Of a DNA stretch of 64,000 nt, positions 3,001 through 57,600 are shown piece by piece. Each line of letters starts with the position of its first letter. The first letter of the stretch is position 1. The translations under genes and the position numbers were made by a program. A model generated the notes under the pieces. It was not told where the DNA came from and searched no databases. It saw only the letters and a program-made list of their open reading frames with translations. The stretch is taken from positions 3,632,530-3,696,529 of the forward strand of contig JAVTLE010000023.1 of assembly GCA_033439295.1 (NCBI GenBank), in the 5' to 3' direction. This DNA comes from Deuterostichococcus epilithicus (taxonomy: Eukaryota > Chlorophyta > Trebouxiophyceae > Prasiolales > Stichococcaceae).

Positions 3001-6000
3001 GAGCGGAGTCGCTCAACCGGAGTCGCTCAAGGCAGCGGTCGGGGCTTGTGGCCTGCTGCAGAGTAGAGCATTGAACCACATCGCACCAGCAGCCGCTTGG
3101 ACATTGGCTGACATTGACGCCGCCGCCCCTTGACTGCGCAGCCAAGATGGAGCCCTTCGAGCAGGCCGGCGCCGCGCTCGCCCTGCTGCGGGCTGCCGCA
3201 GAGGCGCACCCCGCTGTGGACGTCAGCGGCGCGGTGCTGGCGCCGCTGCCGGGCGCGCACCGTGCCCTCGCCTCCCCCACCTGCCTGCCCCACCTGGTTC
3301 AGGTAGGGTGTAGGGTATAGGCCAGGCCACCAGACAGCGTGCTGCGTCCTTGACCCTAAACATGCCATCGCGAGCCGAGCCTGCTGGGTCCTTCTGTTTG
3401 CTGCGTGGGGCTGGCGGAGCTGCCGGGCAGCACCAGTCGAGGCGGGCTCGCAGCGGCCGGCGTGACGGCAGTGTCCGCCGCTGCATTGGTTGCGGAACAT
3501 GGCTCTACTGAGACGAGTCACGATGTGGCGAAGCCGCACAGCTGGCTTGAGTTGCCTGTGCGAGCTTGGGCTGCTGCTGAGGGCATTCTCTGATGCCCTG
3601 ATCAGCACGTCCATCCGAACTGCCGACTCATGCCATGGGACAGCATGTCGCTGTGCTCAAGAAAGCAGCAACACTACATCAGCTTTTGAAAAGCATGCCT
3701 CTCTCAGCCCCCTGCCCTGGACGCCGTCAGGTGGTCACGTAGCCGAGGCACTGGCCATGCAGCAGCACGGCAGCTCCGTTTGTGTGTCCACAGTCATGTT
3801 TCTCACGGCACTTCACCGTACAAGTCTTCCTACCAGATGGTGCCTTGCCAGCTGATGGCAAGGTGAAGCCAGCGGTGCTGCCAGTGTCAGGCGCCGTGGC
3901 AATGCAGCCTCTCTGCCCCTCCCATGTCCAGATTCATGACGATTGCATCGGCCCTCTTCCAATGCCGCAGCTCATGGCGACGGGGGAGCCGGCGCTGGTG
4001 GCGGGCGCAGCGGCGCTGCTGGAGGGCGTGCTGCGGCACAATGGGGAGGCGCTGCCGCGGCTGTACCGCACTGGCGCCTTCTTCCTGGTGCTGGCCTACT
4101 GCGGCTCCAACCTGCTGGAACTGGCCCGCCTGCTGCGGGTGCGGCCGCAGTCACGAAACCTTCCAGTTGTCAAAACCTTGAACCCTTCTTGACTCGATAA
4201 CCAGCCCTCCTGGCGCTCGCCTCTGGCAGTGCCAACCTCCCGGAGCTGGCCCGCCTTCTGTGCATGCAAACTTGGACCCTTTGCGAGTGGTCCAGCTTTC
4301 TATCCAGACATCCTAGCGAGCAGCAGTCAATTTTCCGGCCATGCTGGAGTTGTCCTGCCTGCTGCGGGTGCGGCGGCAAGCATGACACTTCCAGTCATGG
4401 GCTTTCTCTGATGCAGAGCATTCTGCGGCTTCATCTCGCTGAACCTGGCCCGCCTGCTGCGGATGCGTCTGCGGCCTTGGTAAGGAGGGATCTGGCAGCG
4501 TTAGAAGTTGTGGCAGCTGTGTTGCAGCCACATGATCCTCTGTCGGCAAGACGATCTTAAGACGTGCTGAATTGGTCGCACCAGCATGGCGGGTGCGGTC
4601 CACACAGAAGCTGCGCGCCATGGACCACACACCACACAGATGCCAGTCGGTGACATACTCCCTGAGCCTGTAGCTGCAGGGCTTCTTGTTGTCGAAGTAC
4701 TTCGCCCGCTCACGGACCATGCCAGTGACTGTCATCTGTGTGTGCTTGCTCCGTCAGGCTCCGCAACACGACGGGCGGCTCCTGCCGGACCTGTCATACT
4801 CTGCTGGCTGCGCGCTGCTGCCATGTGCCCCTGCAAGCCTGAACATCCAGGCACAAAGGCGACAGCCATAGTCGGCTGACTGTCTCAGCATCAGCCCCTA
4901 GCCCATCAAGGGCAGGCCGGCTAGGGGGCACCGTCCTTCTCTCGCGCTACTCATGTTCAGGCCTTGGGTTCCCACTCCAGGGTGGCGCACGCGCAGCAGA
5001 CAGCGATGCGGTGGCAGTCGGAGGCGGAGGTCCAGCCTCCGGGCTGACGCTGCCCGACCTGGCGCCTGAACCCGCCGTTTCTGATGACAGCAGTGCAGCT
5101 TTCGTCAATCCTTCTCGAACTCCAACACGCATCCGCAGGTGGCGCCCCTGGAGCAGGCAAAGGTGCTGCCGCGGGGCGCGGCAGGGCTGGCACCTCCTGA
5201 CCAACCCGGCCATACTGACCTTCTGTCTGGCACCTCCGGTCCAGCATAGAGCTTCCAGCAAAACTGTACCCACCCTGTCACCCAACCCTGCAGGTAGCGC
5301 ACCTGGAGCAGGCGGAGGTGCGGCCGGCGGGCGTGGCCGGGCTGGCGGGGCGCTCCTTCCTGGGCGGCCTGCTGCCGGAGTCGCTGCTGTACGTGCTGCA
5401 GAGCGGCGGCCCGGGCGCCTTTGCGGCCGCGCTGGCGGGCGACGCCGACACCCCGGAGCTCATTTGGACGCACCGCATGCGCGGCCAGCGCCTCGTGCCG
5501 CAGGTGCGAAACAAAAACTAAGCAGGTTTTGCACCTGTAGTTCCAAAAATCACTGCAATCTGCCGGCGGCCTCGCAGACAGCCTTACGGAGGTGGCCTTG
5601 TTGACGGCCTCAGCCCGACAGCGCTCCTGCAAAGCATGTCCTGCAGCATTTGACTGCGGCAAGATGCTGGACGGTTGCAGCATGGGGTCTGCAGCCTCCC
5701 TCTTTCTGCCTCCGCTCCTGACACCGCTGCATGACCGCTCCGCCCCGCAGATGCTGACGCACCTGGGCGACTTCCCGGCACGCCTGGCGGAGCATGGGCA
5801 CGCTGTGTACGAGTACACGCCCTGCCCGCCGGTGGGCTACCCAGAGCTGGCAGAGGAGCTGTGGTGCCACCGCTACTACCTGCGCAACCTGTGCGACACC
5901 GCCCGCTTCCCCGACTGGCCGCTCGTCGACCACGTGCCCTTCCTTCAGGTTTGCAACTGGTTGTGCTGCATCCTGTGCAGGGCATGCAAGCTTCACCTTG

Positions 6001-9000
6001 TTGACCGCCGTCACAGAGTCAGAGGTTGGCCTTGGTAGCACTCAGTAACCAGCAGGCTCGCTGTTGAGCGCGCCAGCCGCTTGGGAATGGCCGTATCACC
6101 GTGCCAGTAGTCCTGCAAACACCTGTTTCACCGGTGAAACTGTACTGAAACAGCTGCTGCTGAGGAACGGCCGTCTCGCCGCGCCAGTAGTCCTGCAGCA
6201 CCTGTTTCAGCAACTTTCTGAACGGTGAATTAGGGTGAAGTGGAATGGCCGTCTCACCCTGCCAGTAGTCCTGCTGCATCTGTTTCACAGGTGCAACAGT
6301 GTTTTAAGTGGAACGGCCGTCTCACAGTACTAGGAGTCCTGCCTACCAGTAGTCCTGCTGGAACACCGGTGAAACAACATCAGCTAGTGTAGAACTACTG
6401 GCATGTCGGCAGAGACGCTGTCATTGTCCAAGCCAGAAGTCGTACGGCTGCGTACTGTTCGCTGCTATTCCACCGCCATGGCACTGCGATGTGTCGCTGG
6501 TGGATGGTGGAGGCGCAGGACCAGTGCTATGCTGCCTGCAGTGGGTAGTGGGGCCATTCGTGACGATCCATACCCTGCCGCCGGCTGGACCCGCCTTGCA
6601 ATTCGGGGTCCCCTCCCTCGTCGATGCAGCCTCCAGGTCGCCAGCGACATTCAGAAGTCCTGCGCATGCTTGCTGCCAAGATGCTCAAGAGGAAAGGACC
6701 CCAAAACAGACCATGAAGCCGTCGCCTGCTCGCAAATAAAACTCGCAGGCGCTGCTGGACACCTGGCGGGCGGAGCTGGCGCGGCGGCCGCTGGACATGT
6801 CGGAGTCGGACGCGGCGGCGTTCCTGGGGCTGCCGCCACCGGGCGCCGACGGCGCCGCCGCCTTCTCGGAGGACGACCTCAAGGCGGCGTACCGGGCCGC
6901 GGCGCGCAAGTACCACCCCGACAAGAACCCCGCAGGTGTTAGGGTTAACAGTCGCCTTGCCTTCCTGCCCGGATAGGTCTGCTTTGGCGCGCAAGTACCA
7001 CCCCGACAAGCACCCCGCAGGTGCGAGACCGCCTTGGGAGATGCTTTCCTGCCTGAAGGGGTCGAGCGGGCCAGAGCATCATGCTGCCGCCTGCTACTGC
7101 CTGTTGATATGTGTACAAGTCCGATTCGCATATCCTGTTCCTCAATGAAACGTGATGAGGTGGCAGGTTTCTGGCCCTGTGGACGTGCAGCTGCTCACAG
7201 CTGGCCATTCGGACTGTCGCATGCCAGGCCGGTGAGCAGGAAGCTTGCGGTCGGAGGCCCTCGCCGCTCTTTGATTCTGTGTGGCGCCGAGTGGCAGGAC
7301 GCGACCGATTCGTGGCGGTGGGCGCCGCGTACGAGCGCCTGCGCGCAGGCGCCGCCGGCCGCGTCGGCACCCGCCCATCTGTCGTGCTGCTGCTCCTGCA
7401 GGCGCGCTTGAGAGCCACTTGCATACTTGCACCATTCTAAGGTGGGTTTGCATCTGTGCTATCGCTGGACTGGCCGCGATGCCCGGAGGCTGCTCGCCTC
7501 AAGTACCATCTCCTGCAGCATGCGTCCAGATAGACTCTGTACATGGTGGCATTCCGAAGCCTGAGCTCGACTTTAAACAATACGTGTTTGACTGCTGCAG
7601 GCGCAGTGCATCCTGTTTGCGCGGTGCCCGGAGGTGCTGGCGCCCTTCAAGTACGCGGGCTACCCAATGCTGCTGGACGCGGCGACGCTGCCGGAAGGCG
7701 AGGAAGACGGCGCGGGCGGCGGCGGCGGCGGCGCCCACTTCCTGGGCCCGCAGCGCGCCCCGCAGCTGCAGGTGCGCTGATGCCATACTTCCTGAGCTTG
7801 AGTGTGTGAGGGTTGGTAGACAGCCGACCCGCAGCAGCGGTGGCGGCGGCAGACATGCCGTGGATCCGGCTGCGGCTGGAAGTGCAGGCGAACTGTCTGA
7901 GCACCTGCGGAGCTGCGCAGCCTGGTGGGCGTATGTGAGGCCAGGCGTGCTCCTTGAGGCAGCGAACGACGATGGCTTGCACTCAGCTCTGCTTTCTGTT
8001 TGGAGGCCTGCCTGTGAGGCGCCCACATGGACATTGCCTGTATTCGCCCGCCACCGGGGTCAGCCCAGCATCCGAAATGTCTGTGCCGGATGAGTGGCAA
8101 TGCGACAGGCTGCCTCCAGGCCTGGCAAGGCCTCATGATGGCCTGACTGATCTGGGTTGCATGTACCTCCGGTGCACAGCATATGCAGCATTTGCACAAG
8201 CAATATGCAAAATCTCAAGGCGCAGGGAAGCAGTGTCGGCTGGTGCTGGGATCCAATGAGCTCAGTTTACAGCGGAGAGTCTGTGCATCTCAGCAACGAG
8301 CAGCCTTTGGTGCAAGCAACTTGCGTCGTGATCTCCATTGTCCCAATCGTACAGGCGGCAATCGAGGTCATACGGGTGCATTGCAGACCAGTCCTCCACG
8401 GCCAAGGCCTCCTGCTGCTACTGCGCATAATCTCAATTTTCGATTGCGTTGCATCTTTTTTGAGTCGCTATTACAACTTTACAAGGCAGGCAGCATGCTG
8501 GCTGACATATGTCAACAGGGCACCCGATAAGGAGGAGGGCGGACGTGCTGCAGTCACATGTCTCCTCAAACGTCGTTGCAGTCCATCTGATCTTGCCGCA
8601 ACCCAGGCCGCAGTGGAGCTGTGCTGGCTCACCTGCGTCTCCAGCGCACTCAACGGGAGGCGTCAAAGCTTTCATGTCACGTGTAACTCGCAGTTCATAT
8701 TGTGATGTTGCATCGCAGGCCGCAGTGGAGCTATGCTGGCTGACCTGCGTCTCCAGCGCGCTCAACGGGGAGGAGCTGACCCGCTGCGGCGGCGTCGCCA
8801 CCCTGGGGGCGCTGCTCATGCGCACGGTGGGGGTGCTGCCGGCGGACGCGCTGCCGACCGCGCCCGGCGCCGTGATCGCGACGCACTGCCTGCGCACGTT
8901 TGCCGGCATGGCGGCGTTCGGCTCCGCACGCCAAGAGCTCGCCGAGCGGTGCGCTTCCACTGGTCGGGGTTGCTACACGGGGTCGCCGCCGGCGCATCGG

Positions 9001-12000
9001 GTCTTGGAAGCGAGCATGCAACGTCAGTGCTTCATTTGACAGCTGCTCGACTGCTAGGGGCTGAGCTTGCGGCGCAAGGCGTGCACGTTGTGTGGGGTGG
9101 CCAGTCGTCGGTGTGCCTGCACCCTGCAATGCCGAATCCGCCCTGGCGTTCACATTGTTGGTTGCTGCCCACCGGACTGCTGGCTACTGGGCCTGCGCAC
9201 CTTGCATGCCTTTGCAGCGCACCAGGACGCAGTACCTAATTGTCTCAGGCCGCCTGCTGCTTTGCTGGTGATAACGTCAGTTCACCCATGCTTTGTGTGC
9301 CGCGAGCAGAGCGGTGCTGGTGCGCAATCTTGTGCGGCGTGCTTTGCGGCAACGTCGAGGAAAGTGAAGGGGATAGGAAAGGCTGAACTAGCATGCCGCC
9401 TGCGACTCTTCTCAGTGACGAGGCCGTCGTTGAAGTGTATCGTGTGCTCGTTGCAGGGAGGTGCTGGTGGGCGATGTGGTGCGGGCGTGCCGCCTGGAGC
9501 GCGCAGCTGCAGCTGTGGACGCAGCACTGCAGGCCATCTTCCAGCTGGCCGCCGAGCCTGCGCTGCAGGCATGCTCTGTCCTATGATGAAAGCACACACT
9601 CGCCGTGCGGCGATGGTTTGCTTGCGCTAATGTTGAATGCACAGCCGCTCTGGGTCGCAGGACAGCGCCACGGACACTCAGCAGAATAGATGCACGGCTT
9701 GCTGCCGTGTGGCTTGACACCGCATGGCGAGCATGGCTGGCTTGCCGGCAGACGTTCAGACCGTGCCGTACCCAGTCGACCCTGAAACCCCTGGTCCCCC
9801 CAGGAGCTGCTGATGCGGGTGGGCGTCATCCCGCACGTGCTGCCGCTGCTGCTGTCCTACGATGCCACTGCGGAGGGTGACGAGGGCGAGGGCGACGCCG
9901 CCAATGCGCCGGCGGCTGGCGCCGCCGCCGGCGCTGAGTCCCCGACAGAGGAGCGCGGCCCCAAGTTCCTGGGGCTCGGCATCGTGCGCTCCAACATGCA
10001 GGTGGGGCTGAGCACTGCTGCCACCCACACGGGCTTAATGTAGCAGGGTCCTGCACATGTAATTGCATTGAGCAAGCCACACATTGCGCGATGTTCAAGT
10101 CAACCCCAGCCTGCAGCTCCATTCCCCTGATGCAGTCGAAGTCCTGCTGTCTGGCCAAGCACGTGAAGCTCGGCAGGCTGCATGCCTCAGGCTTTGCTGA
10201 AGCCGGATTTCCTGCCGAGCACGTGCAGCAGCTCAGCAGCAGGCTGCACGGCTCAGGGCAATCGCCCAGCACCGCACTGGGGCAGGCAGACGGCCACACG
10301 CCGCGTTACTGAAGACCGCGTCACTGCACGCAGGCGGCGAAGAACTACCATGCGGTGCTGGCGGCGCGGGCGCTGGCGCGGCTGGCCGGCCACCTGGGGG
10401 CGCCGCGGCACGAGGGCGCCGCCGCGGCGCTGGCGGCGCTCATGACGGCGCAGCTGGCGGGCCGCCTGGGCGCCGGCGACCCCCACCCGTTGCTGCGCGA
10501 CCTCAATCGCAGCGTCGCCACGCCCACGGTGCTGCACCCTATTTCATTCGCCAGGCAGACAATGGATTTTGCCAGTCGGTCCACCTTATTACTGATGACA
10601 TCAGGCCATGGCTCGAGGCAAGCTTGCTGGCTGTGCTCATGACGCTCGCACTCCGCATCACAGACAACCGCATCCGGAGGCGGGCTTCACAGATGATCGA
10701 GCTGGGTCCAACGACATCGCATGCAGTATAGCATTAAAAGTACAAACGTACGGTGTTACACGACAGAGTCTCCTTGGTTTGCGAAGGTCATCTGGAGCAG
10801 CCAGATGCGGGAGGAGGTACTGGAGGCCCTCGCCGCGCAGCGCGCCGGCGCGGCGCCGCCCGCGGCCACCGACTCCGCGTCCGGCTTCCGCTTCGCGGCG
10901 CTGGACGGCGAGCTGGCGGTCGCGGGCGTGTACGTGCGCGTCTTCAACGAGCAGCCCAACTTCCCGCTGGCCGACCCCGCCGCCTTCTGCAAGGCGCGAC
11001 CCTGGCGCTGCTCAGCAGCTCAGCATGTACCAGCATGGAAGCTCAGCATGCACCAGCTGTTGCCAGGGTCGTCCCCTTGAGGTGGTTCTCCGATGAACAG
11101 CATTAATATTTGAGTAGCACGCTCTGTGACTTCTCGTGCGAAGCGAAATGCCGCTGAGCGTGGGCAGCTGCCCTGACCAGCAGATGATGTTGAGGCTGGC
11201 CGTCACAGGGGCTGGTCATGTACATCAACACCAGCATGAGGGAGGAGGCGCGCGCCGGCAGGGCCGCCGCCGCCGACGGCGGCACCGGCGCCGCGACGGG
11301 CGCGCGCAGGCGGGAGCACCTGACGGCGGCCCTGGGCGCGCNGCAGCACGCGGTGGAGGGCCACCCGCGGCTGGCGATGCTGATGGCGTCGCGCCCGGCG
11401 CTGGCGCCGCTGCTCGACGTCCTGGAGCGCGCCTGCCAGTGCGGGCTCCGTGTTTCTAATTGAAAGATAAATCTCAGCACAAGTACCATAAATAAAGTCC
11501 ATGTCATGCACCCGGCCCCGGCTTCGATGCCATGTCAAATGGCTCAGAAGTTTCTGTGCACCATCGCTCCCTGGTCTCGGCGCGAGGTGTGGTGCGGAGC
11601 CAGCGACGGAACCAGCAAGGGATGCCGCGCACACACGAGGCAACGGTCTGCACCGTGCGGCCAAGGGTGCGGCGCCACCACTGCTTCCATGGGATTTTGA
11701 CGCGCTGCAAGCCACCGTCTGCACTCCCCGCAGGCGGCTGCACGGGGTGGCGATGCCGTCGGGCGCGCTGGAGCCGCCGCCCGAGGCGGTAGCAGACGCG
11801 CAGGCGGCGCACGATGCTGAGGCCGCGGCGCTGGCCCTGGCGGTGCTCGTCCGCCTGACGGCGCACGCGGGTGCGGCAGCCTTTCCTAGACCCTAAGCCC
11901 TCTTCCTGGCTCGCCTGTTCGATCTGCGTACCTCGCATCCAAGGCAGCGACAGCCCCCATCTCTCAGCGTTCAAACAAGCCGCTCAATTACATAGGCGTC

Positions 12001-15000
12001 AGGCCTGTCGCGCGTCCGGCTCCAGCTGGACCTGTGACTCGTGACCCACAGTTATATCTTTGTAGTTGCCTGAGCATGCAGTCTCTCTCATCGAGACCCG
12101 TCTGCCGACCAGCAGCCCGCGCGCTCCCGCGCAGGCTGCGTGGAGGCGCTGGCGGAGCCGCGAGCGCTGCGCGCCGCGTTCTGGTCGCTGCACCGCCCGC
12201 CCAGCGAGGCCGCTGCGGGGCTGGCGCTGCGGCTGCTGCACGGCCTAGCGGCGACGCCTGCCGCCGCCTGGGCGGCCGCCGGCCAGGGCGGCACACTGTA
12301 TGCCATGTCAGTGCTGCTGCCGACGGCGCCGCCCGATGAGGCCCGTCGGGTGGGTGGCCCTGAGCTTGAAATCTTCAGATCGGTCTCCATACACTTGTGA
12401 CGGCAAGGGGACAACTTGCCCCGCAGTGAGCAGTGCCCTGCGCAGCTTGCCGTCGGTGCACCCCACGCTGCCATGCCCTGGTCCTCAAACAGAATGGCAT
12501 GTCTTAGAAGATATTGCTCTGCTTGCGCAGGACACCCGGCAGACGCTGCAGGCGGCGACGGCGTCGCTGCTGGGGCGGCTGGCGGCGCAGCCGCTGCACG
12601 GCCCGCGCGTCATGCTGCTGCTCAACAGGCTGCTGCCGCCGGGCCTTGCCGCCGCCATCCGTGATGGGCCAGGTCAGCAAACTGCCCGAGTTGCAGAGCG
12701 CTGCGACTGGCGATCTCGGGCCACTCAGCTTGCTCGAGACATCTGCAAGGGCAGCTGCCACCGCAAGACATGTGCATACATGGGATGGTACTTCACGGCC
12801 GTCCAGCCCACAGCGGCTGTGACGGCGCCAGGGCAATCAACAATTCACATGGCAGAGCGAGCTCGGACCTGCAGCCAGGGGCTCGCAAAAGCGATCCCAA
12901 ACCTCGGTGGGCACATGCAGGCGAGGCGGCCGTTGCGGCGCTGCGCACGGCGAGCGAGACGCCGGAACGGCTGTGGTCCGCTGGCATGGCGTCGGCGCTG
13001 GGAGAGGAGCTGGCAGACCTGACAGCCCAGGCCCGCGCTGCCCAGGTAGGGTGTTATGTGCTGGAGCATGTCTGCTGGCTGAGCTCTAAGACGGGTGACT
13101 GGCTGTTCTGCTGGTGGACTGCTCGTCACCTCGTCAGGCTGATGAACTAACGAGGTGTAGAGACGTGACACCAGCCGATCGGCATGGCGTAGCCCTCGTC
13201 TGAGTTGGGCACAGGCCCTGCAGAGACGCCCTACGTGCACGCCGCACTGGCTGCAGTGTGCACCCGGCGGCGAAGCACAGAAACCTGACGACTCAGCAGG
13301 ACGGCAACCGACCAGAAGCGCTCGGCTGAGCTCGGACATACCTGCCGGCCCCGCAGGCGGGCGGCGCGGCGGACTGGGCGCTGCCGGAGGGCTGGCGCCT
13401 GGAGCACCCCGCCCTGGAGGGGGAGGAGCTGGTGGGCGGCGTGTACGTGCGCCTGTTCCTCAAGAACCCTGGCTTCCCGCTGCGCGACCCCCGCGCCTTC
13501 CTCCAGGTGGGCTCCAGAATGTTGAAGCCCTCACAACGGCGGTTCGCAATGCTGACTGCTGCTGCCCAGAAACAAGCCTCGCAAATGCCCGCTCTTGCTT
13601 ACAGGGCATTGTCAGCTTGCGGTCTGAGCCATGCATACCAGAAAGTCGTATTCCGTCATTCATAAATTCATTCACTCACTCTTCTGACCCGCTCTGGCTG
13701 ACTCCTCATGATGGTGGCAAAGCATGACTCCTGGTTCCCTTAATCAACAGGGCCTTCTGGAGGCGTATGTGGCGGAGGTGGGGCGGGCGCCGCGCGACAG
13801 CGCCCGCGCCGCCACGCTGGCGGCCGCTGCCTGCGAGCTGCTGCGGGGGCACGCCTCGCTGGGGGATCACGCCGTGGGGCTGGGCTATGCGGAGCGGCTG
13901 CTGGCGCTGCTGGCCGCCCGCCTGAAGGCCACCGGCGCAGGTGACCCTTAACCTTAAACCTTCAAACCTGGCCTTCTGCTGGTGCTTCTGGGGATGGCTG
14001 TGCCGACATTTGTCGCCCAGCATTTCTCACTTTCTTGCCTCGGGGGGTTTAAAGTAATTGGCCCACGCCGGCAGCAGACTCATCAAGGCCGCAAGCCCTG
14101 CGCCTGTCCCCAACGCCTGTCCGCGCAGCCACCTTGTCAGATCTGCAATATCTATGCCATTGTCAATAAATCAGTATCAACATCAGTATCAACATCAGTA
14201 TCAAGTCTCAATATCAATATCAATATCAAGTCTCAATATCAAGTCTCAGTATCAAGTCTCAATGTCCACTCTCGTCAAGACAGGCACCGCCGGCGGCGCG
14301 CCGGACGAGCTGGCGGGCACGGCGCTGCGGCTGCTGCACCAGCTGGCGGCGGGCGACGCCGGCGGTGAGGCGCTGGCGCGCGCGACGCCGCCGCTGGTGG
14401 CTGTACTGCGGCCGGCGCTGGGCGCCGGCGCGCCACCGCCGGCGGCCGCGCTGGCGCTCGAGACGCTGCAGCGCGCGCTGGCGCCCTCCAACAGGCGCGC
14501 GAGTGCAGGGGAATCGAGTCATGTGTCGATGTGCGAATAGCATGAGCCTATCGTGTGCAGAGGTGGATGTGCATGCTGCCATGGCCGCATGCTCCCAACA
14601 CAAGAGGAGGCAGGTCGCCTCGGCAGGCTGACAGTTCGAGCCCCAGCCTCCATTGAGAAACTCTCACTGGCAGATGCTCTTTGATGCACCTTGTCGATTC
14701 GTCATGCCTTGTTTACCTAGAGACGACCATGTGCTTGACTGGTTTTCACAACATGTGCCCCGCAGGTTCCGAGACCTCCTCGTGGAGGCGGCGCTGGCGA
14801 ACGGCATCATGCCAGTGCTGCTGGCGCGCCTTGACTGGCGCGCCGCGACGGCCGGGCCTGGCGCCTCCGCCACCGGAGCCGCCGGCGCCGGCGGCGGCAC
14901 CAGCGTCACGCAAAAGCAGCAGGGGCCACAGAGCGGCGGCGGCGGGGCGAGCGCCGGCAGCGGCGAGGACCGGGACGAGGCGGTCGCCCGGGTGCTGGCT

Positions 15001-16918: not shown

Positions 16919-16929
16919 TACAGTGGCTT

Positions 16930-38864: not shown

Positions 38865-39235
38865 GAGATCACAGGGGCTCGCACCCCCTTTGTGTGTGGC
38901 CAAGGGGCCTCCCCACCCTACTGCCACATTCAAAGGCCACACACCCTCGCCGCGCGGGCCGGCTGGCCGCCGAGCCCTGACCCGGCCCGCCGCTCGCCTT
39001 TGCATGCGGCAGCGCGCGGCTGCGCTCGCTTTCGATGGCTGGCCCGCCGCCCGCCGAGCATAGCCCTTCTTGACGCAAATTACAAGCTCTTGCAAACACA
39101 GCGACCTAGCGTAGACTTCGGGCCTACCGGCCTGACTGCACTAGAGCGTTCCTTCGCTTGCCGCCGCACCCTCGCCATTGCAGCTTTTTGCTAGTCCCCT
39201 ACTAGATGCTTGTAATTCGCTGAGCCTATGTTGTA
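38865..39235 (+). repeat. Right arm of diverged inverted repeat around tRNA-Ser(GCT)
   Basis: Partner of 37560-37990 in opposite orientation. Both arms can be read as a related peptide (LLQTQRPSVDFGPTGLTALE here; PLLRTQRPSLGPRPSGSTFE in the other arm), so the repeat may derive from a coding element. No TSD or conserved terminus identified. Confidence 0.6.
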
Positions 39236-43303: not shown

Positions 43304-43421
43304 CATACCGCTGCAACTGCTAGGGTAGTGGCATCCAGTTGCGAGCCTCCCGACCGTCCAGGAACCGGCACTTTTTGGATTCTGAAACGTGACGCCTGGT
43401 TTTATTTGATGATTCCACTAG

Positions 43422-44040: not shown

Positions 44041-44862
44041 ACGCCGAGGCAGTTTGCTGGCGCGCTGCCGCGGTCGCTGTCGCGGCTCTGCATCGAGCCT
44101 CAGCGGGGCTCAAATGGTGCGCCTGCTTTCGTGCTGTGGCTGCCGCCAGCGGAGCAGCAGCGGCAGCTCGACACCCTGGCGGCGGCGCTTGCCCATTTGC
44201 CGGAGCTGCGGTACTTGTCGTTGCGGCACTACCGGCGCTTCTGCCCCTTTGGGGTGCTGCCGGAGACGCTGGTCGATGCGATTGGCACTCTGCCGCAGCT
44301 GGACGGCCTGCACTTCGTGGACGGCAGTCTAAATGAGCTGCCGGTGCTGGCGCGCTCAAGTCAGCTGACATCGTTCAGCCTGACAGACGACGACCTGTGG
44401 GAGTTCCCGCCTCAGCTGGTGCGCTTGCAGCGCTGCCGCCATATCGACATGAGCGGCTGTCGGTTCCTGGAAGCGGGCCCAGTCGAGGCCGTGATGTCGG
44501 GCCTGGTCGGTAGCGACAAGGAGCGCGCCGTGCTTGAGTCGTTGTGCCTCGATCGGCTCAGCAAGGGACCTGAAAAGCCCATAGTATCAGACTACGGAAC
44601 TCATGCAGGATGGACTTGGGTGAACGAAATAGCTACGCCGGAAGTTGTTGAGCGAGCGCAGGCGGTCGCACCTGGTGTGGTCTTTGATCAGGACAACAAT
44701 TGCAACAATCGCAACAAGCATTGGATTGACGTCTTCGATGTCATGACAGACTCCAATTTTGGTCGCCTAGAGTTGGTTGACTGCCCATGGGGTACCGGTA
44801 GGCCGGACTCTGCGATAGCATTTCAGCCGCCTGTCGCCGCGCACTTGCTCCAAGACTTTTGA
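44041..44862 (+). pseudogene. 5'-truncated F-box/LRR paralogue
   Basis: Paralogue of the minus-strand gene at 33685-35697. It aligns from the LRR middle (QFAGALPRSLSRLCIEPQRG) through LAHLPELRYLSLRHYRRFCP, FPPQLVRLQRCRHIDMSGC and HWIDVFDVMTDSNFGRLE to a stop about 26 residues later than its partner. The reading frame is intact from 44041, but an in-frame TGA precedes it, there is no early ATG, and the F-box and first repeats are absent. It is either a truncated copy or a 3' exon whose upstream exons I cannot identify. Confidence 0.6.
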
Positions 44863-45237: not shown

Positions 45238-48200
45238 TCAGGCGGGCACCGCCTCACGGTCGCCGGCGCCGGGGCGTGCGACGCTGAGCTGGTAGTCGAG
45301 CGTGTGCAGGATGAGGTCATCCACGTCCCAGCCGGCGGCCTCCATGTGATCCGACAGCTCCTTCGCCTGAGCCGGCTGTTGCGCTGCGGGACATGTAACA
45401 AAGAGAACCAGTCAGCTGCACGTGCATGCTTGGACCCGCCTCACCTATTTTGGTCAGTGTTCTGCAGCAGCACACACGCATGCGAAGGAACTCAGTACTT
45501 AAAGGGAAAGGGCAAACGCCGCACACAGGTCTGGAGCTGCCTGGCGTTGGTGTTGCATTGATGCCAGCCGCCGGCGATACTGAATGTGCACGGGCTGCCG
45601 CGCAGCGGCAGGGAGAGGACGCACTGCTGCTGGAGGCGAGCTCGCCGCTGCGTGGAGTGGCTGTTTCATGCTCGCAGTCAGGAGGCGGGCCTCCCGTGCA
45701 GCAGGGCTGAACTCAGCCCCGACCTCAGCCCCGATGTCAGCCAGGCAAAGTCCGCAAGAGTCACACTGTGACCCTCCCGCGGCCGCACATCGCGCACCGG
45801 TGATGAGCATCGCCAGCAGCATGGAGTGCAGGCCGCCGACAGCGTCCTCGCCCAGGTCCTCCTGGTACCGCTGCACCGCCTCGAACAGCGGCTCCGCCAG
45901 CTGCGTGGCTTGCTCCGCTGCCGCGCCCTGCAGGGGTTCAGGAACAGGGTTCACAAACACCGGGGATCAACAAACCTGCAGATGATCGACTGTTGCACTG
46001 GGAGCGCCGCCTCGAGCAAGGCCCCGTCAGCCGTGAGGAGTTTTGCTCAGCAGCGGCGCCCTGCACAGGGTTGGGGACAACCAATGGCGGCGTGCGCTCG
46101 CGGGTGGGCCGGCACAGGAGCACCTGCTGCGAGTTTGCGCTGCTGTCGACGCTGTTGCGCCGTTTGCAGCGGCGCATCCTGGCGATCCTCGGTGGGAGGG
46201 GATGCAGGACGACGGCCCAAGCCGTGCATGCCAGAAGTGGGAGAGCAGGTGCACTGCACCGCACCTTGACGAGCATGCCGATGTCGGCGGGCGTGGCGCG
46301 CTCGCCAAGCGCCTCCACGCTGCCCAGCATGCGCATCGCCACCGCCGTCCGCGCCTGGTAGTTGCTGTTGTACCACGACAGCACCCGGTCCTGCGCCATG
46401 AGGAGGGTGAAGCCTGGACATCATGACGGATCAGGAGCGAAGTGATAGACGCCTGGTCGGCCAAGCTCCAAGACAAGAACCCGATGAACAGGGAACACAG
46501 CGGTCAGCACTGCCGCTGCCACCGCCGAACCAGCTGCGAGTGCTCTTGTTGGCTCGACGCTTGAATCCTCAACACAGTCCAAACTCAATCAGTTTGGTGC
46601 GATGACAAACCAGGCGGAGCTGCCAGCAGGCGCACCGGCTGTGGGTGCTGCAAGTCCTCTAGGTTTTTCAACACTCAGCCGCCAAAGAGCCTGGAGGAGC
46701 ACCAAGTCTGACCAGAAAGAGGGACACGCCACCGCACCAGCCGCGGGTCGCCCAGGTCCCTCTGGTTGCACGTCATGCGGCTGGATCACAGCCCAGCACC
46801 TCGAAACACTTGAGATGGCACAGGAACAGAAGGAAGCAGCAGGAAGAACAGCTGGTATAGCGACGAGCGCACCAGCTGCGGATTTTCCAGGTCCTCCAGG
46901 TGCATGTCGCGCGGCGTGCGCTCTGCTGCGGACTGGGGGCCGTCATCGTCCGCACCTACCACCGCCTCCTCGTCTTCCTCCTCGTCCTCGTCCAAGTACG
47001 AGAGGTCTTCTGCGTCAGCGTACGGCGCTGCCGCCTTCGCCTCCTGTGTGCGGACGAGCACACAGATCTCATCTCAGGCTGCACTTTTGCTGGTCAGACA
47101 GTACCAGCAACCCAATCCTCGTCCAGACCGAGGTTCTCGCCCTGCTGTCCGGCGCCGGCGCCCGCGCCTCCTGAATGCATGTGCGCGAGCAAAGCCTTGC
47201 GGCTCTCCTGGCTGCCAAGATTCCCAACGGAGGAGAGAAGGCTTCCAACAAGGATGACTCATCGGTAAAGCAGTCATCCGCCTCCGCGGCCAGCGCCAAT
47301 GCCTTCACCTTGTGCGCATGCGTGCACGTGGGTTCCAGGTGGCTGATAGGAGCCTGTAGATTTTTCCTTCCTCTATAGGGGTTCCTCTACTCGTACAGGG
47401 GTTCCTCTACAGCGGTTCCAAACCCGTCCCATACTGACCCCACGACTCAGCGCCATCCTTCCCCTGGGAGACCAACCCGCCAAAGCCCTTCCATGGTCCC
47501 ATGGCGCACCCCGACACGATCGCCCTGCACCCTCGAGCAAGCGAGCGCACGCTGCGACCTTAGGGGGACCCCGCGGATCCAGCAGCGCTGAAGTCTGGGA
47601 CGATGCGGATCCAGCAGCGCACCTCCGCATCATCGTCCTCATCGTCGTCGGCGTCAAACTGGTCCAGCCCGAGCGCCGAGGGGTCCAGCATCAGCTCGCC
47701 GGCGAGCGCGCCCTCGCCAAACACCTGCTGCAGCACGCCGTCCTGCGGGGCAGGGGAAGCGGACCAGAGGCTGAGCGCATTGTGTTGGAGGGTTTGGAAG
47801 GTGTCAGGGGGACGCACTCGGCGGCTGCGGCAGAGCCTGGCCGAGCCGCCCCAGACCATCTGCTGCCACCAAATGATCGGCCAGTCATCGTCGTGCGCCC
47901 GCTGCCGCAGGGCTGCACCCGGACGCGCAGCGTCCGCGGGAGCAGCCAGCATCTGCGGGGTCCGAGGCGGGAGGCAAAAGCCGGGTTTCGCTGCGGGAGA
48001 GCCGCACCTCCCTCCGCGCGGTCTCCTTCTTCTCAGCCTCCCGCTTGGTCTCCTTGACGGAGCGCTCCCGCACGTACTTGGCGAGCGACACCGCCTGCTT
48101 CCGCTTCTGCTGTGCGACCGAAGTCGCGGCTGCGCTGCTGCGCCGGGCGGCCTGCGCATGGGCACGCCAGACCGTAAACGAACGCCAGCTAGGAACAGGC

Positions 48201-51200
48201 TCTGCAGGTCGAGGGTACCTGGCATGCGACACCGCCTGCTTGCGCTTCTGCGCAGACGCCCGGCCGCCAGCGAGAGTCAGCCTTGCAGGCGGAAAGATGC
48301 TGGAGCTTGCCATGCCTATGAGCGGCCAAAGCCAGTCGGCGCCGACAGCCCTCCACCTGGCAGCATGCACATCGTGCTCCAAATCTTGCGAAGCCCAGCA
48401 TGGGCATGACCGGAGGCCGCCACGGCTGGAGGCTGGTGGCAGAGGCGTCCACTGCTCCTGCAGTGCCAGAACTAAACACCTTTTCAACTCTTGTGTTTCC
48501 AAAGACGTGCGCACCTGGACGCGCTTGTAGATCTCGCGGCGGCTGCCCTCGGTCATGAGGCCACGCGCCTGCAGCTCGGCCTGCAGCTCGATCACCCCCA
48601 GCTTGCTGGGCGCCAGGACCTTGCCGTCTACGTCCACAACAGCCCTGCAGCAACAGGGACATGGGTCGCAATGAGGTAAAGGGTGAGGTGAAGGATAAAG
48701 GAGTTGATTGGATGTAGTTCCGCCTGCAGCTGCGCGTCCGCAGTGGCCCTGCACAGTACAAAGAGGAACACTCGAGGCAGGAATTTGGATCGTCGGGAGG
48801 TGGAGGCTTCAAATGAAGGCTGCAGCTCTTCACCGCCGAGCTTGTTAGGCGCCACGACTTTCCCGTCCGCGTCAAACATCAGTTTACGCACAGCAGGCGC
48901 AGTGGCGACATGAAGGGTGTGGATTGTCTCGAAGGTGCAACGACCGAGCGGCGCCCAGTGCGGGGCGGCCCTGCCTCGGCCCCCTTGCTGTCAATCCCCC
49001 TTGCAGTCAGGAGCAGGACCCCCTCAACTCGGCCTCGCCCGATAACATGACGAGTCCACCTGCAGACCCGCAGCACCACCCGCTGCACGATGCCGCCCTG
49101 CCGGCACAGGGAGTGCCCATCGCCGGCCTCTCCGCGCGACTGCGACATGTGCGCCAAATGTGGCTGCACATGCGCAGCCCATGGCATGGCGGCGCACGCA
49201 TTGTCAGGACAAGCGATAGATGACATGTTGATCCTGATTTCGGTGGTTTGCGCACCCTTCCTGGTTGACCACCACATCGAAGTAGGACACCTCGCCCTTG
49301 GCGTTGCGGTCCTCAACCTGCACGACGCGCGTCTGCGGCGCCGCAGCGGCGACCGACTCCGCCTCTGCCTCCTCCTCCTGCCGCGACGCCGAATCTGTGC
49401 AGGGCGAAGGAATGCAAGCGTGTGATGCACTGTTCCTTGTGCCAAACGGGGGAGGGGGTCAGGCCGACAGGGGCCCGCTGGTCTGTTGCGGCCTGACGAG
49501 GGGCGCAAGGCCTTGCAGTTGCTGAGGGTCGCACGGGGGTCGCAGCGGTGAGGGCGACAGGCGCTGCATTTGGGCACGCTGCTGGGCCCTGCGGCAGTGA
49601 CGAGCAGCGCGACGCAGCATCGGGCGACACCCAAACGAGAGGCGCACTCGAGCACTGCCGCAAGTCAAAGCATACGAATCAGAATCGCAGCCGCGCAGAG
49701 GATCCCNACNGNNNNCCCCCCCAGCGACGCACCGCTGTTGAACTCGGGGGTTGGCGTCTCGGGGCGGTACCCCGAGGAACACAGCCGCGCAAATCGCGCG
49801 TGCAGCCAGCCGCTGACCAGGCTCAGCCCGTAGTCGTTGGGCTCCAGCGCGGCTTCGGGCAGCTGGAAGCCAGCGGAGCGCATCGCCAGCAGGGACTGCA
49901 GCAGATCGGCCGGCGCCATGGTTGCCTGCAGGCAGAACAGCCTCGAGGTTAAGAACAGGCGGCCTGGGCAAGGCGGCAGCAAGGAGAAATTCCTTCTCTG
50001 CTCTGAAACACCTGATCGGTCCACATCTGACTAGAAGAGGTTTATGTAGGGGAAGGGAAATCCCCAAGCAGGACGAAACTTTCCTCAGCTCTGCTGCGGA
50101 TCATGCAGTGTCTGCTGATGACATCTGCACCTGCTTGTGGAGGTAGAGGACGAGGATGTGCTCCGGCAGCGGGCAGGTCGCGCTGCGGCCCGACTCCTCG
50201 ACCGACAGCCGTGCCATCTCTGTGAATGCACGTGCCGCCTCCTGCGCCACATCCGAAATGCACAATTGACACTGAAACCCAAGGACCTTGCACACGAGCA
50301 AAAAGTGTGGGGTGCCGCCCGCGAGCCGACTGCCAAAGCCGTGCGGCTACACAGTGAGCTCGAGGACGGTGGCTGAATGCGCTGACGGGGCCGGCAGATG
50401 TTTCTTAGCATGCAGGGCTGGTAGTGCATTTATAAGTAGTGCAATCAGGCCGCCCGGTCAGCACTGCATCCAGCTGCCAGCTTGCTGCCCCTCTGCCTTC
50501 AGCACGAAGCACATGACCACCACAAGGGCGGCGGCTCTGGCAGCTGATGCTGTGCAGCACAGGCACTTCCAGTCTCGAGCTCGCCTTCGTTTTCTTTAAC
50601 TTCCTGCAACCTGTTTCTGCACTAGGTTCAGGCGTGCTAGGGTCAGGCGCCCCGCGACTCACCTGCATGCAGTCCTGGTCGCCGTCGAGGGTGAAGCCCT
50701 CAACCTGGAGCGCGTGGTAGCGCGCGTTGGGCGGCACCTCGTACTTGGCCATCATGCCCTCCACCTCGTACTTGAGCTTGTCCAGGTTGTTATAGCCGAA
50801 GCCTCGATCCCGATTGTCGATGTAGCCCTGTAGTGAAATACAATGCGACGGTGCACAACCACCCGATGGAGTCTCGCAATGACATCTGCGATGATGCTTT
50901 GCACTTCTCGAGTCTGTGTGCTCCTCCCTGGATATCCCGCTGGCTTCGTCCACTTTGACAGCGACAGGTACGACGACTGTCGCGATGATGCTGCGCCAGG
51001 TGGTTGCTGTGGCGTTGCGCTGGTCTGACAAGTCCAAACAGGAGCACTGCAGCGATGCCGGGCCATAAAACACAGTCTGAGCCTGCCGCAGCACAGAGCG
51101 TGTCTGTCGGCGAGCGCATGGCCGCCCGCGACGGCGCAGGCACCGCCCCGCACTCCTGGGCGTGTCATTCGGACGGCATCGGGGCGAGCCCAGGCTGCGA

Positions 51201-54200
51201 GCAGGACAGCAAGCAGTGGCGCACCCGCAGCAGGCAGTTGAAGCACTCGGTGTCGATGGCGATGTCGGCGCTGGTGGCCACGTCCAGCAGCACCTTTTCC
51301 TGCAGGTACTCCAGCGCGCCGCCGGCGGCGTACGTCCGCAGGATGGGGTGCACGTGCCGCGCCGTCGGCGGCACGCCCTCCCGCTGCGGCACCACACAGC
51401 AGCGGCGTGTGAGCGGGGGCAGGCAAGGCTGCCAGACACGCACTCCAGCAGGCAGGCGCGCAGGAGGGCGGGCTGTCGGTGTGCCTCGTCGTCGTGGGCG
51501 TCCCTTTTCCCAACCGCGCTTGACGAGGGCGCAGCCGCAATGACACGCGCGAATCTGCCAGCAAGCGGATGCAGTCGTGGACTGCTGGAGGATGTACTCG
51601 CGACCCGGCGTGCTTGGTTGCAGACTGCAGGCGGATGCAGTCGTGGACTGCTGGAGGGTTTGCCGGCGGCTCGGCGTGCTCTGTTGCAGACTGCAACCGG
51701 CCGCGAGTCAGGTCGCAGGCTCCACACATGTACTCGAAACCCAGCTTCACGCAGCTGACGGTTTCAATGGCCTTGGCCAGGAAGCGTGTTGCCCCTGCAG
51801 CGCACAGCGCAGTGCCCCAGGCGCGCTCAGACCCACCTTCATGCGGTTGACGATTTCCAGGGCCTCGTCCAGAAATCCGGCCTCGCAGGTGGCGGCCACC
51901 ATGGCCTCGTACACCGCTGCGTTGGCGGCCCACCCCTGCTGCTGCCCCCGCGCCAGCTCCTCCGCGGCCTGCACAGCGCAGGGTTTAGGGTTCAGGGCAT
52001 GCACCTGTGCAACAGAGCACCCAGCACTGAGCACGGTCCCAGCCACGGGCTCTGCGTGTCGTTCGTGGGGGGTGGCGTTCCGGACGGATCGTGCGACGCC
52101 GCATGCGCGTGCCGGTGCATCAGGCATGCCGTGACTGCCTGATGTATGCCACCTGACTGCGGCATCCAAGCCCAGCGACTGTTGCAGGTCGACTGCATGT
52201 GCATCAAATCGTCGCAACTCCAGGCTCTGGACGTGCAAGCGCTGAAGCGAGCGGCTGCGGCAGGCTGGCTGTCATGCGACGCTGGCAGGGGCGCGCCTTC
52301 TGGTGGTAGCCGCCCCGCAGCAACGACTGCAGGAGCACCAGCCACCCCGAGCGCGCGGACACGTGCGGCGCCGACTGCATGCTGGCCAGCAGCCCCTGCG
52401 CCGCTTCCACCTTGCCCTCCTGCGCAGGTGGAATTATGGCGGCGGCTCAGCAGTTTGGCGCCTCAGAAGCGCCACGATGTCATCAGTAGCGAACAGATGC
52501 GCCGCCTCCGCCTTGCGCTCCCACACTTCGAGCGACCGACAGCGGGTTCTTGGGCAGCAAGGCACGAGCGTCAAGGTGCAGTCGAACACAGAGCAATGTG
52601 CTTGGAGCTGGACGTGCAATGGAGAAGCTGTGGTCACAGAGTACAGCCAGCGCTGAGTAAGTAGGTGGCACCGGCTGCAGTTAGCCCACCAGTTCCCCCG
52701 CACTGCCCGCTGGCTGCCGGAGCGGATTCAGGCTTTAGGCCATTATGTGACAAGAAGCTCTTCCGTTGGTGGCTGGCATCTGAGCGCTTGTGGGCAGGCG
52801 CCTGCGGTCGCGACGGCACGGACGCGTGCCGCATGGGTGGCAGGCGCGCTGCCGCTTCAATGTCGCGTGACTTGTAGCACCTCGCCGAATGTGGATCGGG
52901 GCGGTGATATGCTGACACGCATAGAATCAAGCTGGCAACTGCAAATCAAATCAAAACATTCGGGAAGGTCAGACACCGCCACCAGAGCAGCAGCGTGTCC
53001 TCCTGCAATCACACAACGCCGCGCGGAGCCCTCTACCAGAGCCAGCGCATGCGCTCAGAGCGGGGCCGCGCCCGGTTGCAGCTTCCCCCGGAAGATGGAA
53101 GGACATGACAGCACGCCGTCAGACCGTGCGGGCCGCGAAACACGTCGCAGGCCGCACCTGCATGTGCCCGTGTATGAGCAGCACGTAGGACTCCGCCATC
53201 AGCAGCGCGCCGGAGGCGTGTCCCCGCCGAGCGGCGGTCCAGGCGCCGGCGGCGTCGCCCGCTTTGGTGTACGCAAACACCAGGCCGTGGAAGGCGCGCT
53301 GCCCCGGCGGCAAGCCGGCCGCCTCCATCTCCGCCAGCACCGCCTCCGCAGCCTCCACGTTGCCGGCCTGCGCCGCCTTGCCCAGCCGCCTGCGCGGGGG
53401 GTGCGGGACCGCAGCCTGAGCTCGGCTGCTGACGTTCGCCACTGGTTGGACGGTTGGTGGCAGATCGGCTGCAGATACAGATTGCGACACGCTGGGCCTT
53501 GCAAGGAGCGGCACAGCGGCAGTTGATTGACCGCTGTGCTGCAACATGTCCAACGCTGGAACAATGTGAATCAAGGGGCCGGGGAGCGCAACCACAATCA
53601 GCTCACTGGTGGTATGGCTTGCGTTCGGGCGCCAGCTCATCGATGGCTGCAGCCGCCAGGTCCCGCTCATCCTGCTGCGGCAGGCCGTTGCCGCCGGCGG
53701 TTGGCGGCGCACTGCTCTGCAGCGCCGCTCCTGGCTGCTGCTGCTGCTGCCGCGCTGCCTCCTCCTCGCCCCGGAGCGCCGCCGCTGCATCCAGGAATGA
53801 GGCTACGGCTCACGGTTCCAGCTCGTGTGGGTACAGCTGTGACCATGGTCGTCTCCGTGTGGACGCATGGAGGGTAGTGGCTGGTGTGTGAGCTGATGCC
53901 GTTTGTATGCGAGTGCAAAGCCGGCCTGCGCCTAGGCGACTTGAACGCACCTTGCTCTGAGACCCAGCCGACGCCCTCGTAAGGCTTGGATAACCTCTCC
54001 GCACCTGCACGCGGTTTGCTCGCGGTTGCATGGTCCGGGCATGTGAGCAAAGCAAGATGGCCGCCGCAAGCTGTGACGCATGGCGCAGGTTCCGCCACGA
54101 GCTTGCGATCGTGTGCAGAGTCGGCCCACTTGCCTTCTACGTCCTCAGTAGCCTGCACGCCCTCGCCGTCGCTTGCCTTCTTTGCGCTAGGGCGGGTGCG

Positions 54201-54673: not shown

Positions 54674-57600
54674 ATGCTCGCGGTTTCGGAGGTCCTTGAG
54701 GCCCTGCAATCCGACGCCAAGCTCCGAAACCTGCTGCAAGGTGCTTGCATACGTGTTCTGCTACGCATTCAGGTGTGTTGGTTGCTACTGGCCTGAAATA
54801 CTCATCCGTGTCACACCCATATGTCTCGCTTTCATGCGCAGACCTGGACGCTGGTGGCGGCAGAGCGCCTGCGGCACTGCTGCAACGGGCAGTGCAAGGC
54901 GTAAACGCCTCACGCCTTGGCGACATGTCGGCCGAGATGTGCCGAGACGCGTGCTGGGAGAAGCTGCACACCGGCAACTGGGCAGAGGTGGGTTGTTGTG
55001 CATATTTCCGCCTTGCCGTGACAGCTCGGCGCTGGAGTGCAGACCATAAAGCCGACGGCTACATGCTTGATGTGACAGGTTTCAGTCATGTGGCGGAACG
55101 CATACACAGCTGCCAGCCTTCTGTGCGCCTGCGCCGCCGCCGCGCCAGCAGCCGCAGCTCGGCGTGAGGCGCTGGCGGTGCATCAGCCGGCACGAGACCA
55201 CGTTTCTGAGGCAGAGGCGCAGCCTGCATCGGAGGCCTCGCTCGCAACAGAGGCAGCGGACGAGGCTGGCGAGACCGCCGCCGCCGCACCCGCTTCGGCA
55301 GACCTGCCCGCGGCGCCCAGCAGCGCGCAGGACTGCGCACCAGGCGGCGATGCACTCGGCAGTCAACCGGGCGGAGGCGGTGTTGCCACAACCTGCAGGA
55401 AGCTCGGCTCAGCTTCTGCAGCAGCGGAGGAGGAGGCCCTGCGGCAGCTGGACATGGCGGCGCTTCTGGGCGGGCCGCTGTTCCGGCCGGTGCTAGACGC
55501 CTGCATCGCCAGCCTGCAGGAGACCGTGGCCGCAGCAGCAGCGGCGGCGGCGGCGCTGCCGAGGTGCCATCGCCACAGCTCAGGTGCAAGCCCGGGCCGC
55601 GGCTCGCCGTGCTTCAACGCGCGCCTGTATTGAAAATTGCCACCATGGCAAAGCGGCAGCCAGGTGGATTGCGAAGGAGCAGGTTGTGATGCCGCAGGCG
55701 GTGAGCGCAGCGGCAAGCGGCAGAAGCTCAATGGAGCTGCAGACAGCCCTGCTCCGGGTGACTATGCGGGCCATGCTGGCAGCAACAGGGCTGCATTGGC
55801 CACCGCGCAACAAGAGGTGCCGCTGCCGCCCGGAGCGCTGCAGTCTGGCCTCATAGAGCGGCAGCCGCTGCCGTCGCTGGAAGGGTGCGCATTAGCATAC
55901 TTGCCTCCGTTTGCTGCTGTGCATAACGTGTTGCGCTGCATCTGACATTGTGTTCTCCAGTTTGCTTGTCTCCTGATGCTGACTGCGGAGTCCTTGTGTG
56001 TCCAGCTTTTTTGAGCACTTCATGTGCGCGGCCGGCGGTGGCCGCCCTGTGATCATCACGGGTGGGGCACACACCTTTTCAAACACCCGGACGCTATCTA
56101 AGCTGCTCAGTAGTGTTTGTCAAGCGCATGTTGCCTCTGGCAGATGCACAGGAGAAGTCATGGGCATGAAGGCGCCGGCGCCAGTCTGAAAGCTCTGGAT
56201 CCCTGTTCAGGCGGCATTGAGCACTGGCCAGCGCGGCAGCGGTGGGGTGATCTGTCCTACCTGCGGACGGCCGCCGGCGCACGCACCGTGCCGGTCGAGG
56301 TGCTGCCCTGTCTTGATGACCAGACGTACTTCGTGCATCGCAGCGGAGCAAGGAAGTGTCCGCACAGGCTGACTGCTCGTCACTCTGGCAACCCGCAGGC
56401 TGGCCAGCACAGCATAAGCCAACTGCTCATCCAGACACGCCTCCTTACTTCGTCATGCTGGCAATGCACAGGTGGGGCAGCACTACCTGGCGGCAGAGTG
56501 GGGACAGCAGCTCATGACGGTGTCTGATTTCATAGACCGCCACATTCTTGCCCACGGCAGCACCGACAACAGCTGTGGATCAGGTGTGCAGGCGATTTCA
56601 GGCTCTCCCACCTGGAAACTCAATGCGGCCGCCCGGCCCTCAGAAAGCCGCGAGTTTCTCGCCCGTAATTGGGCACGCACAATTGGGCACACGCACTTTG
56701 AGCATGCATTCCAACGCATTCGACATCCCTCCTGTGGCGCGGCGTCAGGAGAGCAGCGGGGCTACCTGGCGCAGCACGAGCTGTTCGAGCAGATACCAGT
56801 GCTGCGCTCCGACATCCACGAGCCGGAGTACTGCGCCCTCGGCGCCGGCGGTCGTACCACCGTAAACGCCTGGTTTGGGCCGCCCGGCACGGTGCATTTC
56901 CTTCTCATTGATGGGGCGCAGTCTCGACCTCATCCGCTGCGGCGTGAACAGTGCCAGCCGTGACAAGTAGCGTACTTGTCAGCATCTGACACGCTCGAGC
57001 TTGAGGCTGCTGTGCCGCATCCTGCGGTTCTGCCATGTGGGAGCTTGCAAGCAGGCTGTCACGCTGGGCAGTCAGGCTCCATCACAGATCACAGCAGTCG
57101 ATCCCGAGCAGACACAGCTGGGTGGCCGCCCCCGCGGGTGACGCCGCTGCACATAACCCTGATTGGTTCACAGAAAAAACCTGAGCAGTCCGCACGACTG
57201 CCGGCCTGCAGGTGACGCCGCCGCACACGGACCCGTACCACAACCTGCTGGCACAGGTGGTGGGCCGCAAGTATGTGCGGCTTTACCGGCCGGATGCAAC
57301 GCCGGGCCTGTACCCCTTCGAAGAGGGCTTCACCACCAATTGCAGCCAGGTGCGGCTGCTGTGCATGTTTGCGCGCTCTCGACATGTCGAGACCCACCTG
57401 CCAATTTTTGCGGTGCCGTATGTGTCGCTGCGCATATATAAATGAATGGAAATCAAGGCAATGTTGACACGTCGCGATCATGAGGAAATTCACGCGGCAT
57501 TTGTTGGCGTGTGCAGGTGGATGTTGATGACCCGGACGTGGAACGGTTTCCGGGCTTTCGCGGCCTCCAGCACTACGACTGCATCCTAGAGCCCGGAGAC

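Follow-up and report, generated by a model that had tools for sequence, protein, structure and literature searches.

Decayed exon-edge copies in the introns of Deuterostichococcus epilithicus suggest intron lengthening by local tandem duplication

Results and discussion

Introns of several predicted genes in a 64,000-nucleotide (nt) stretch of the Deuterostichococcus epilithicus genome (contig JAVTLE010000023.1, positions 3632530-3696529; hereafter the window) contain diverged copies of sequence from the margin of an adjacent exon. Our analysis of the window and of 25 other stretches, each of 10 kilobases (kb), from this genome of 46.8 megabases (Mb) in 21 contigs shows that exon-edge copying is a real pattern that reaches past the window, yet one that concerns a minority of introns. 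The process behind it is probably local tandem duplication, tolerated at splice junctions and followed by neutral decay, which would lengthen existing introns.

Gene models and intron set

Gene models were obtained with a purpose-built small hidden-Markov gene finder, trained on the window and 16 other stretches and then run with stiffer splice penalties on all 26 sources (the window plus the 25 stretches). On convergence the splice sites reached were CAG followed by GTGCG at donors and GCAG followed by G at acceptors. Since freedom from stop codons is imposed by the gene finder itself, the external check is provided by Pfam family matches of the multi-exon models. The first run gave eight models in the window, and six predicted window proteins were scanned against Pfam: three whole, one whole except for one X, and two in part. 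After exclusion of introns outside 40-1500 nt and of those flanking predicted exons shorter than 30 nt, the set comprises 422 predicted introns, 89 in the window and 333 in the other stretches.

Excess of local repeats and exon-edge copies

Direct repeats in the window are strongly local. With an ungapped score of at least 22, there are 23 pairs at lags of 30-600 nt, two at 600-1170, one at 3000-3570 and none at 8000-8570, and a single dinucleotide-preserving shuffle of the window gives none. The same holds over 17 sources, where 136 pairs at lags of 30-600 nt, some of them coding minisatellite-like repeats, compare with 7 at 600-1170, 2 at 3000-3570 and none after shuffling. When repeats were sorted into classes, those with strong short-period structure were removed, 62 of the 170 pairs in the first classification, and the same filter was reused later.

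For the junctions, the 60-nt edge of each adjacent exon was aligned locally to its intron, and a score of at least 36 was taken as a match. The initial annotation had proposed such an alignment with shuffled controls, and it gives a clear excess: 35 of the 422 introns carry an exon-edge copy, whereas shuffled introns give one match in the window and none in the other stretches. Length-matched foreign introns lead one to expect 0.2 matches in the window, 0.5 in the other stretches and 0.7 overall. The copies are found in 14 of 89 introns in the window (15.7%) and 21 of 333 elsewhere (6.3%), so that the initial description of copies in "many introns" was too strong. An earlier version of the test, on 282 introns, found them at the same threshold in 12 of 85 and 18 of 197, respectively. 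The higher rate in the window (Fisher p=0.008) is expected because the window was chosen for this very feature. Matches occur in 13 of the 26 sources, and the copy-level statistics below are based on 41 junction matches, 18 on the donor side and 23 on the acceptor side. Copying into both orientations, as in templated repair, was rejected because no reverse-complement match reaches a score of 36, either in the window or in the other stretches. An assembly artefact is unlikely, as identity to the exon edge ranges from 67 to 97% among the best copies at the 41 junctions, apart from one perfect match of 18 nt.

Some of the arrays are multi-copy, as would be the case for dispersed intron-borne elements (introners or transposons) or satellite arrays. 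That the copies belong to such elements is nevertheless highly improbable: exon-edge matches to foreign introns are scarce, and in a fast search four stretches, among them 24538-24777, 6084-6355 and 8578-8657, match only themselves in the whole genome.

Copies mark the longer introns

The strongest new result is the dependence on intron length. By an ungapped criterion, which happens to yield 35 introns as well, copies are present in 3 of 271 introns shorter than 300 nt, 10 of 89 of 300-450 nt, 17 of 40 of 450-700 nt and 5 of 22 of at least 700 nt. The controls of the ungapped criterion cover the whole set, with 2 introns when introns are swapped between genes and none when they are shuffled; the length-matched foreign introns belong to the gapped test, and that the length classes are themselves uncontrolled tells against the duplication reading. 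Counted over the 41 matches, introns have a median length of 508 nt, compared with 245 nt for introns without a match. The classical register of intron gain, in which a duplicated AGGT creates the intron, is found in none of the 422 introns (local score at least 30, 40-nt exon edges), a search that decayed old cases would escape, and this candidate was set aside. Lack of the AGGT register, together with the length dependence, suggests that existing introns are growing rather than that new ones are being born.

We propose the following course of events. Local tandem duplications would occur across the genome. A duplication within an exon would usually break the gene and be lost, while one within an intron or over a splice junction could be tolerated, the latter because the spliceosome would go on splicing at the outer junction, which turns the additional copy into intron. 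Each event would lengthen the intron by one unit and leave a copy of the exon edge, often with its own splice site, to decay free of coding constraint; repeated events would build arrays in which the nearest copy tends to be the freshest. Exon-edge copies would remain recognizable for the longest time, since selection keeps the exon, their partner, from changing. That the mutation is a duplication, that the outer junction is the spliced one, and the order of events are parts of this scheme that we infer.

The copies decay as non-coding sequence

The copies look like non-coding, decaying sequence, since mismatches to the exon are spread almost evenly over codon positions 1, 2 and 3 (113/652, 117/648 and 136/647, or 17.3%, 18.1% and 21.0%, over the 41 matches) and 22 of the 41 alignments carry a net frameshift. 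Their G+C fraction (0.692) is close to that of the exon (0.700) and away from that of the intron (0.597). These observations bear on the notion that the copies serve as alternative exons, as mutually exclusive exons or as functioning alternative splice sites. In its favour, the net frame is kept in 19 of the 41 copies, 23 of 41 retain GT or AG, 18 of 41 reach or exceed the score that marks the 10th percentile among predicted real splice sites, and 9 of the 23 that retain the dinucleotide equal or outscore the true site. The near-even mismatches and the frameshifts disfavour it, and we regard it as very improbable for the copies at large: as a set they lack the signature of alternative exons (a kept frame and better conserved positions 1 and 2), while single cases are possible. 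The earlier statement that the copies usually carry their CAG acceptor or GT donor thus holds for 23 of 41. By our estimate from divergence, neutral decay would be expected to leave about as many splice dinucleotides, so nothing indicates a purging of decoy sites.

The best copies lie at a median of 72 nt from the junction. The initial annotation had each copy decaying with distance from the true exon, and here the trend stands while the correlation does not. Among 15 neighbouring copy pairs at 13 multi-copy junctions the nearer copy is the better in 12 and the worse in 3, which fits a series of duplications proceeding away from the exon, but identity and distance over the 41 matches are only weakly related (rho -0.22, p=0.16). 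The period of the exon-edge copies is mostly 85-240 nt, with a median of 125, and that of intronic duplications 38-158 nt; the intronic pairs and lags come from a loose, uncontrolled gapped alignment covering about 0.9 of the period, of which only this list was used. Spacers shorter than 40 nt are scarce between a junction and its copy, 3 of 41 against a fraction of 0.22-0.27 in simulation, as if short ones were not tolerated. Six introns have copies at both ends, compared with 3.3 expected by length class.

Departures from simple tandem duplication

A tandem duplication of a unit that spans the junction repeats the intron side too, so homology is expected there as well; repetition of the exon side in all 41 junctions is given by the way they were selected. 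Intron-side homology (p<0.05) is found in 9 of the 41, where 2.1 are expected by chance, at 3 of 18 donor and 6 of 23 acceptor junctions, and was found in 6 of 36 in the first match set. The introns concerned include 6936-7297 and 7772-8718, in both of which the homology carries indels, and 7738-8129 and 3208-3779 of the sampled stretches L004 and L008. By eye, intron 929-1611 of stretch L015 also resembles an array of two copies whose intron parts are homologous, and there the test gives p=0.126.

Several results weigh against simple duplication as a full account. To begin with, every statement made here about introns and exons is a prediction of our own gene models. Further, the 9 junctions with intron-side homology fall below the 32.9 of 41 simulated with small indels. 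A first simulation, restricted to small indels, had seemed to defeat simple duplication outright; an indel-rich one, with the gap rate fitted to the copies (0.023 per column), softened the conflict, although its approximately 16-21 of 41, our arithmetic from simulated rates per bin, still exceeds the 9 seen. Some copies of high identity have no intron-side homology, such as the one in intron 8421-9078 of stretch L012, which is 93% identical to its exon (p=0.85). Over the copies, ungapped identity starts at about 0.7 and approaches background in the first 8 nt beyond the splice site; the drop is full at donors (0.25 at +8 to +12) and reaches 0.31-0.34 at acceptors (0.34 at +8 to +12). Finally, repeats internal to introns are found in 15 of the 422 introns, 7 of which also have exon-edge copies, and exon-edge repeats thus outnumber intronic ones by 35:15, a ratio two to four times higher than the 0.6-1.2:1 of the simulation (p=0.009 when tested against 1.1). 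If the second term is limited to introns that have intronic repeats alone, the ratio is 35:8 against 1.1-2.1. Both deviations say that exon-derived parts outlast intron-derived parts beyond the twofold that a constrained partner would give. Faster structural turnover of introns, exon-to-copy conversion and junction bias are all possible sources.

Conversion, in the form of exon-to-copy gene conversion or repeated template switching, would keep the exon-like part similar while the intron part drifts to saturation. It would account for the several young-looking cases in which the exon part is 88-97% identical with weak or no intron-side homology and for a similarity boundary that falls at the splice site, and the indel-bearing intron-side homology in 6936-7297 and 7772-8718 can be read the same way. 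The alignments, however, show no patchiness, with an unusually long identical run (p<0.05) in none of the 41; efficient exchange over 35-60 nt would be required; and much of the discrepancy already disappears if decay is rich in indels. We therefore hold conversion to be unlikely, while giving it some weight.

A junction-biased copying process, for example one tied to transcription or to splicing intermediates, would place the exon edge with its splice site into the adjacent intron. Such a process is suggested by copies that extend no more than about 8 nt beyond the splice site and resemble the splice motif of the local intron, and by the excess of exon-edge over intronic repeats relative to simulation. 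Against it stand the intron-side homology in 9 of 41 junctions, the presence of intron-internal duplications and the nature of the copy flanks, which are no closer to the adjacent exon than to a random one, so that spliced messenger RNA (mRNA) was not the template; the process is accordingly improbable. Over 33 matches the flanks at +0-2, +2-5 and +5-8 agree with the intron motif at 0.67, 0.57 and 0.38, with the adjacent exon at 0.45, 0.35 and 0.25, and with a random other exon at 0.47, 0.33 and 0.32. Copying templated on mRNA was rejected on this better fit to the local intron motif.

A special process at junctions, then, is not demonstrated, because intron-internal repeats exist and the constrained exon would by itself prolong visibility. 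Of the genome-wide duplication process put forward initially, the part that finds support is that local duplication lengthens introns and reaches past the window (matches in 13 of 26 sources, the tie to length, non-coding decay).

Copies in the GRV2 model

The initial annotation had named four genes, and copies are confirmed in three of them: GRV2, SMP/C2 and PPR-SAP. In the fourth, JMJD5, none of the seven introns has an exon-edge copy, the best score being 28.

In the GRV2 model, on the plus strand, exon-edge copies occur in introns 4139-5293, 6936-7297, 7384-7600, 7772-8718 and 8949-9456. The 3' edge of exon 3971-4138 (4083-4138) is the apparent origin of three decayed copies downstream, at 4208-4267 (75% identity), 4342-4388 (81%) and 4418-4472 (80%; 4094-4148 at a lag of 324 nt), and here the farthest of the three donor-side copies is the best. 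At the other end of the same intron, the start of exon 5294-5503 has a copy upstream at 5135-5191 (84%), within which the first gene-finder run predicted an exon (5139-5162). The 3' edge of the J-domain exon (6901-6935) is followed by a 97% copy at 6986-7020 and then by GTGCG, a donor that outscores the true one (GTGTT) by our position weight matrix, which makes the segment 6901-7025 a good candidate for alternative splicing. Upstream of exon 8719-8948, a copy of the intron end and exon start at 8578-8657 is 84% identical over 80 nt (93% in the exon part), and a second, more decayed copy of the exon start lies at 8495-8537 (72%).

Several of the strongest repeats are internal to introns by the gene models, rather than exon edges: a four-copy array with a spacing of 68-80 nt at 6084-6355 (plus strand), in the GRV2 intron preceding exon 6749-6935, which might mark a missed exon; a wholly intronic tandem duplication with a 121-nt period at 15564-15791 (plus strand, 75%); and a wholly intronic 66-nt tandem duplication at 51561-51692 (minus strand, 85%), in PPR-SAP intron 51384-51836. 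A predicted intron between GRV2 exons also holds a 13-nt minisatellite, TCAATATCAAGTC, in 5.4 copies (14195-14263).

Copies in the SMP/C2, PPR-SAP and other models

In the SMP/C2 model, on the minus strand, copies occur in introns 21745-22175, 24470-25126 and 28829-29176, the last with an 18-nt match only. The start of exon 21601-21744 has a copy at 21875-21946 (79%), and that of exon 24048-24469 is copied three times at 24538-24777. Copies of the start of exon 26066-26227 (88%, 70% and a 29-nt piece) form an array at 26265-26531, which lies outside the counted introns because the first gene-finder run predicted two of its copies as exons.

The PPR-SAP model, also on the minus strand, has copies of downstream exon starts in introns 45928-46264 (72%) and 47044-47622 (73%) and of an upstream exon end in intron 46391-46872 (73%). 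Intron 48645-49255 contains a copy of the start of exon 48515-48644 at 48820-48873 (74%), and intron 51384-51836 a copy of the end of exon 51837-51968 at 51739-51783 (78%). A further exon-edge match lies in intron 39688-40188 of an unnamed model on the plus strand.

Gene content of the window

In the Pfam scan of the predicted window proteins, the GRV2 / DNAJC13-like protein has a DnaJ domain and a GYF_2 match slightly under its cut-off; SMP_MUG190-like and C2 domains occur in one predicted protein, the SMP/C2 model, which at 20815-35447 may merge more than one gene; and the JMJD5/KDM8-like protein matches Cupin_8/JmjC_2. PPR repeats are found in the PPR-SAP protein, whereas a SAP domain is not among its Pfam matches, "SAP" being the label of the initial annotation. 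Also found are cytochrome c1 and a complex I 51-kDa domain, whose genes adjoin in divergent orientation (58410-61310 and 61593-63823). The G+C content, the abundance of introns in the genes and protein structures resembling those of plants are in keeping with a green alga.

A decayed large inverted duplication is centred at about 38.4-39.2 kb, with arms 70-74% identical that pair as 33716-34395 with 44048-44774, 37094-37380 with 39999-40287, and 37802-38045 with 38801-39058. By eye, the predicted proteins of both arms share a leucine-rich-repeat-like stretch; Pfam returned no leucine-rich-repeat domain in the one arm scanned. In predicted coding exons of three sampled stretches (L010, 6884-9474; L012, 1393-1576; L015, 3888-4448), all listed repeat lags are multiples of three, and these seem to be protein repeats expanding in frame.

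Relation to known systems and implications

Longer introns are mostly attributed to transposons and small insertions. Introners resemble the present case in changing intron content on a large scale; they are dispersed repeats, in contrast to the four stretches that the fast search found to be unique in the genome. Gao and Lynch (2009) reportedly found internal gene duplication to be ubiquitous, with frequent small duplications feeding intron evolution; unlike in those duplications, the partial exon edges described here remain as non-coding intron sequence.

A review (PMC3443670) describes how introns can be gained through tandem genomic duplication, and a report on the potato RdRp gene (PMC4974935) describes a duplication over an intron-exon boundary that created a new intron. 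The common features are tandem duplication within genes with splice signals, after which one copy becomes intron (PMC3443670, PMC4974935), and, for potato, a duplicated segment that spans the boundary and carries those signals (PMC4974935). The differences are that in the classical case a duplicated AGGT makes a new intron within an exon, while here existing introns are lengthened and that register is absent (0 of 422), and that potato RdRp represents one event and a new intron, compared with many decayed events, in several genes, by which old introns were apparently enlarged, some of them serially. Among the matches listed from the open-licence literature, as judged by titles and the starts of abstracts, none deals with exon edges being duplicated again and again to make introns longer. 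The D. epilithicus data are best explained by a known process, tandem duplication as seen in intron gain, acting here to lengthen existing introns, with two quantitative loose ends.

A stronger version, in which exon edges deposited one after another account for most intron growth, through a junction-biased process or through copies kept by conversion, appears doubtful. If it were true, about 40% of the introns between 450 and 700 nt long (17 of 40 in the sample) would be marked, each unit would bring a ready-made splice site, and intron length and cryptic splice sites would have one mutational source.

For local tandem duplication followed by decay, a fair share of the longer introns would be a readable record of junction duplication, with source, direction and relative age preserved in one genome. 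Lying next to almost identical exon context, the copies would also offer naturally arisen sets of decoy splice sites that differ stepwise in strength, with which splice-site choice could be tested. Tandem duplication would then pass from explaining the birth of introns to being a measurable route of their growth.

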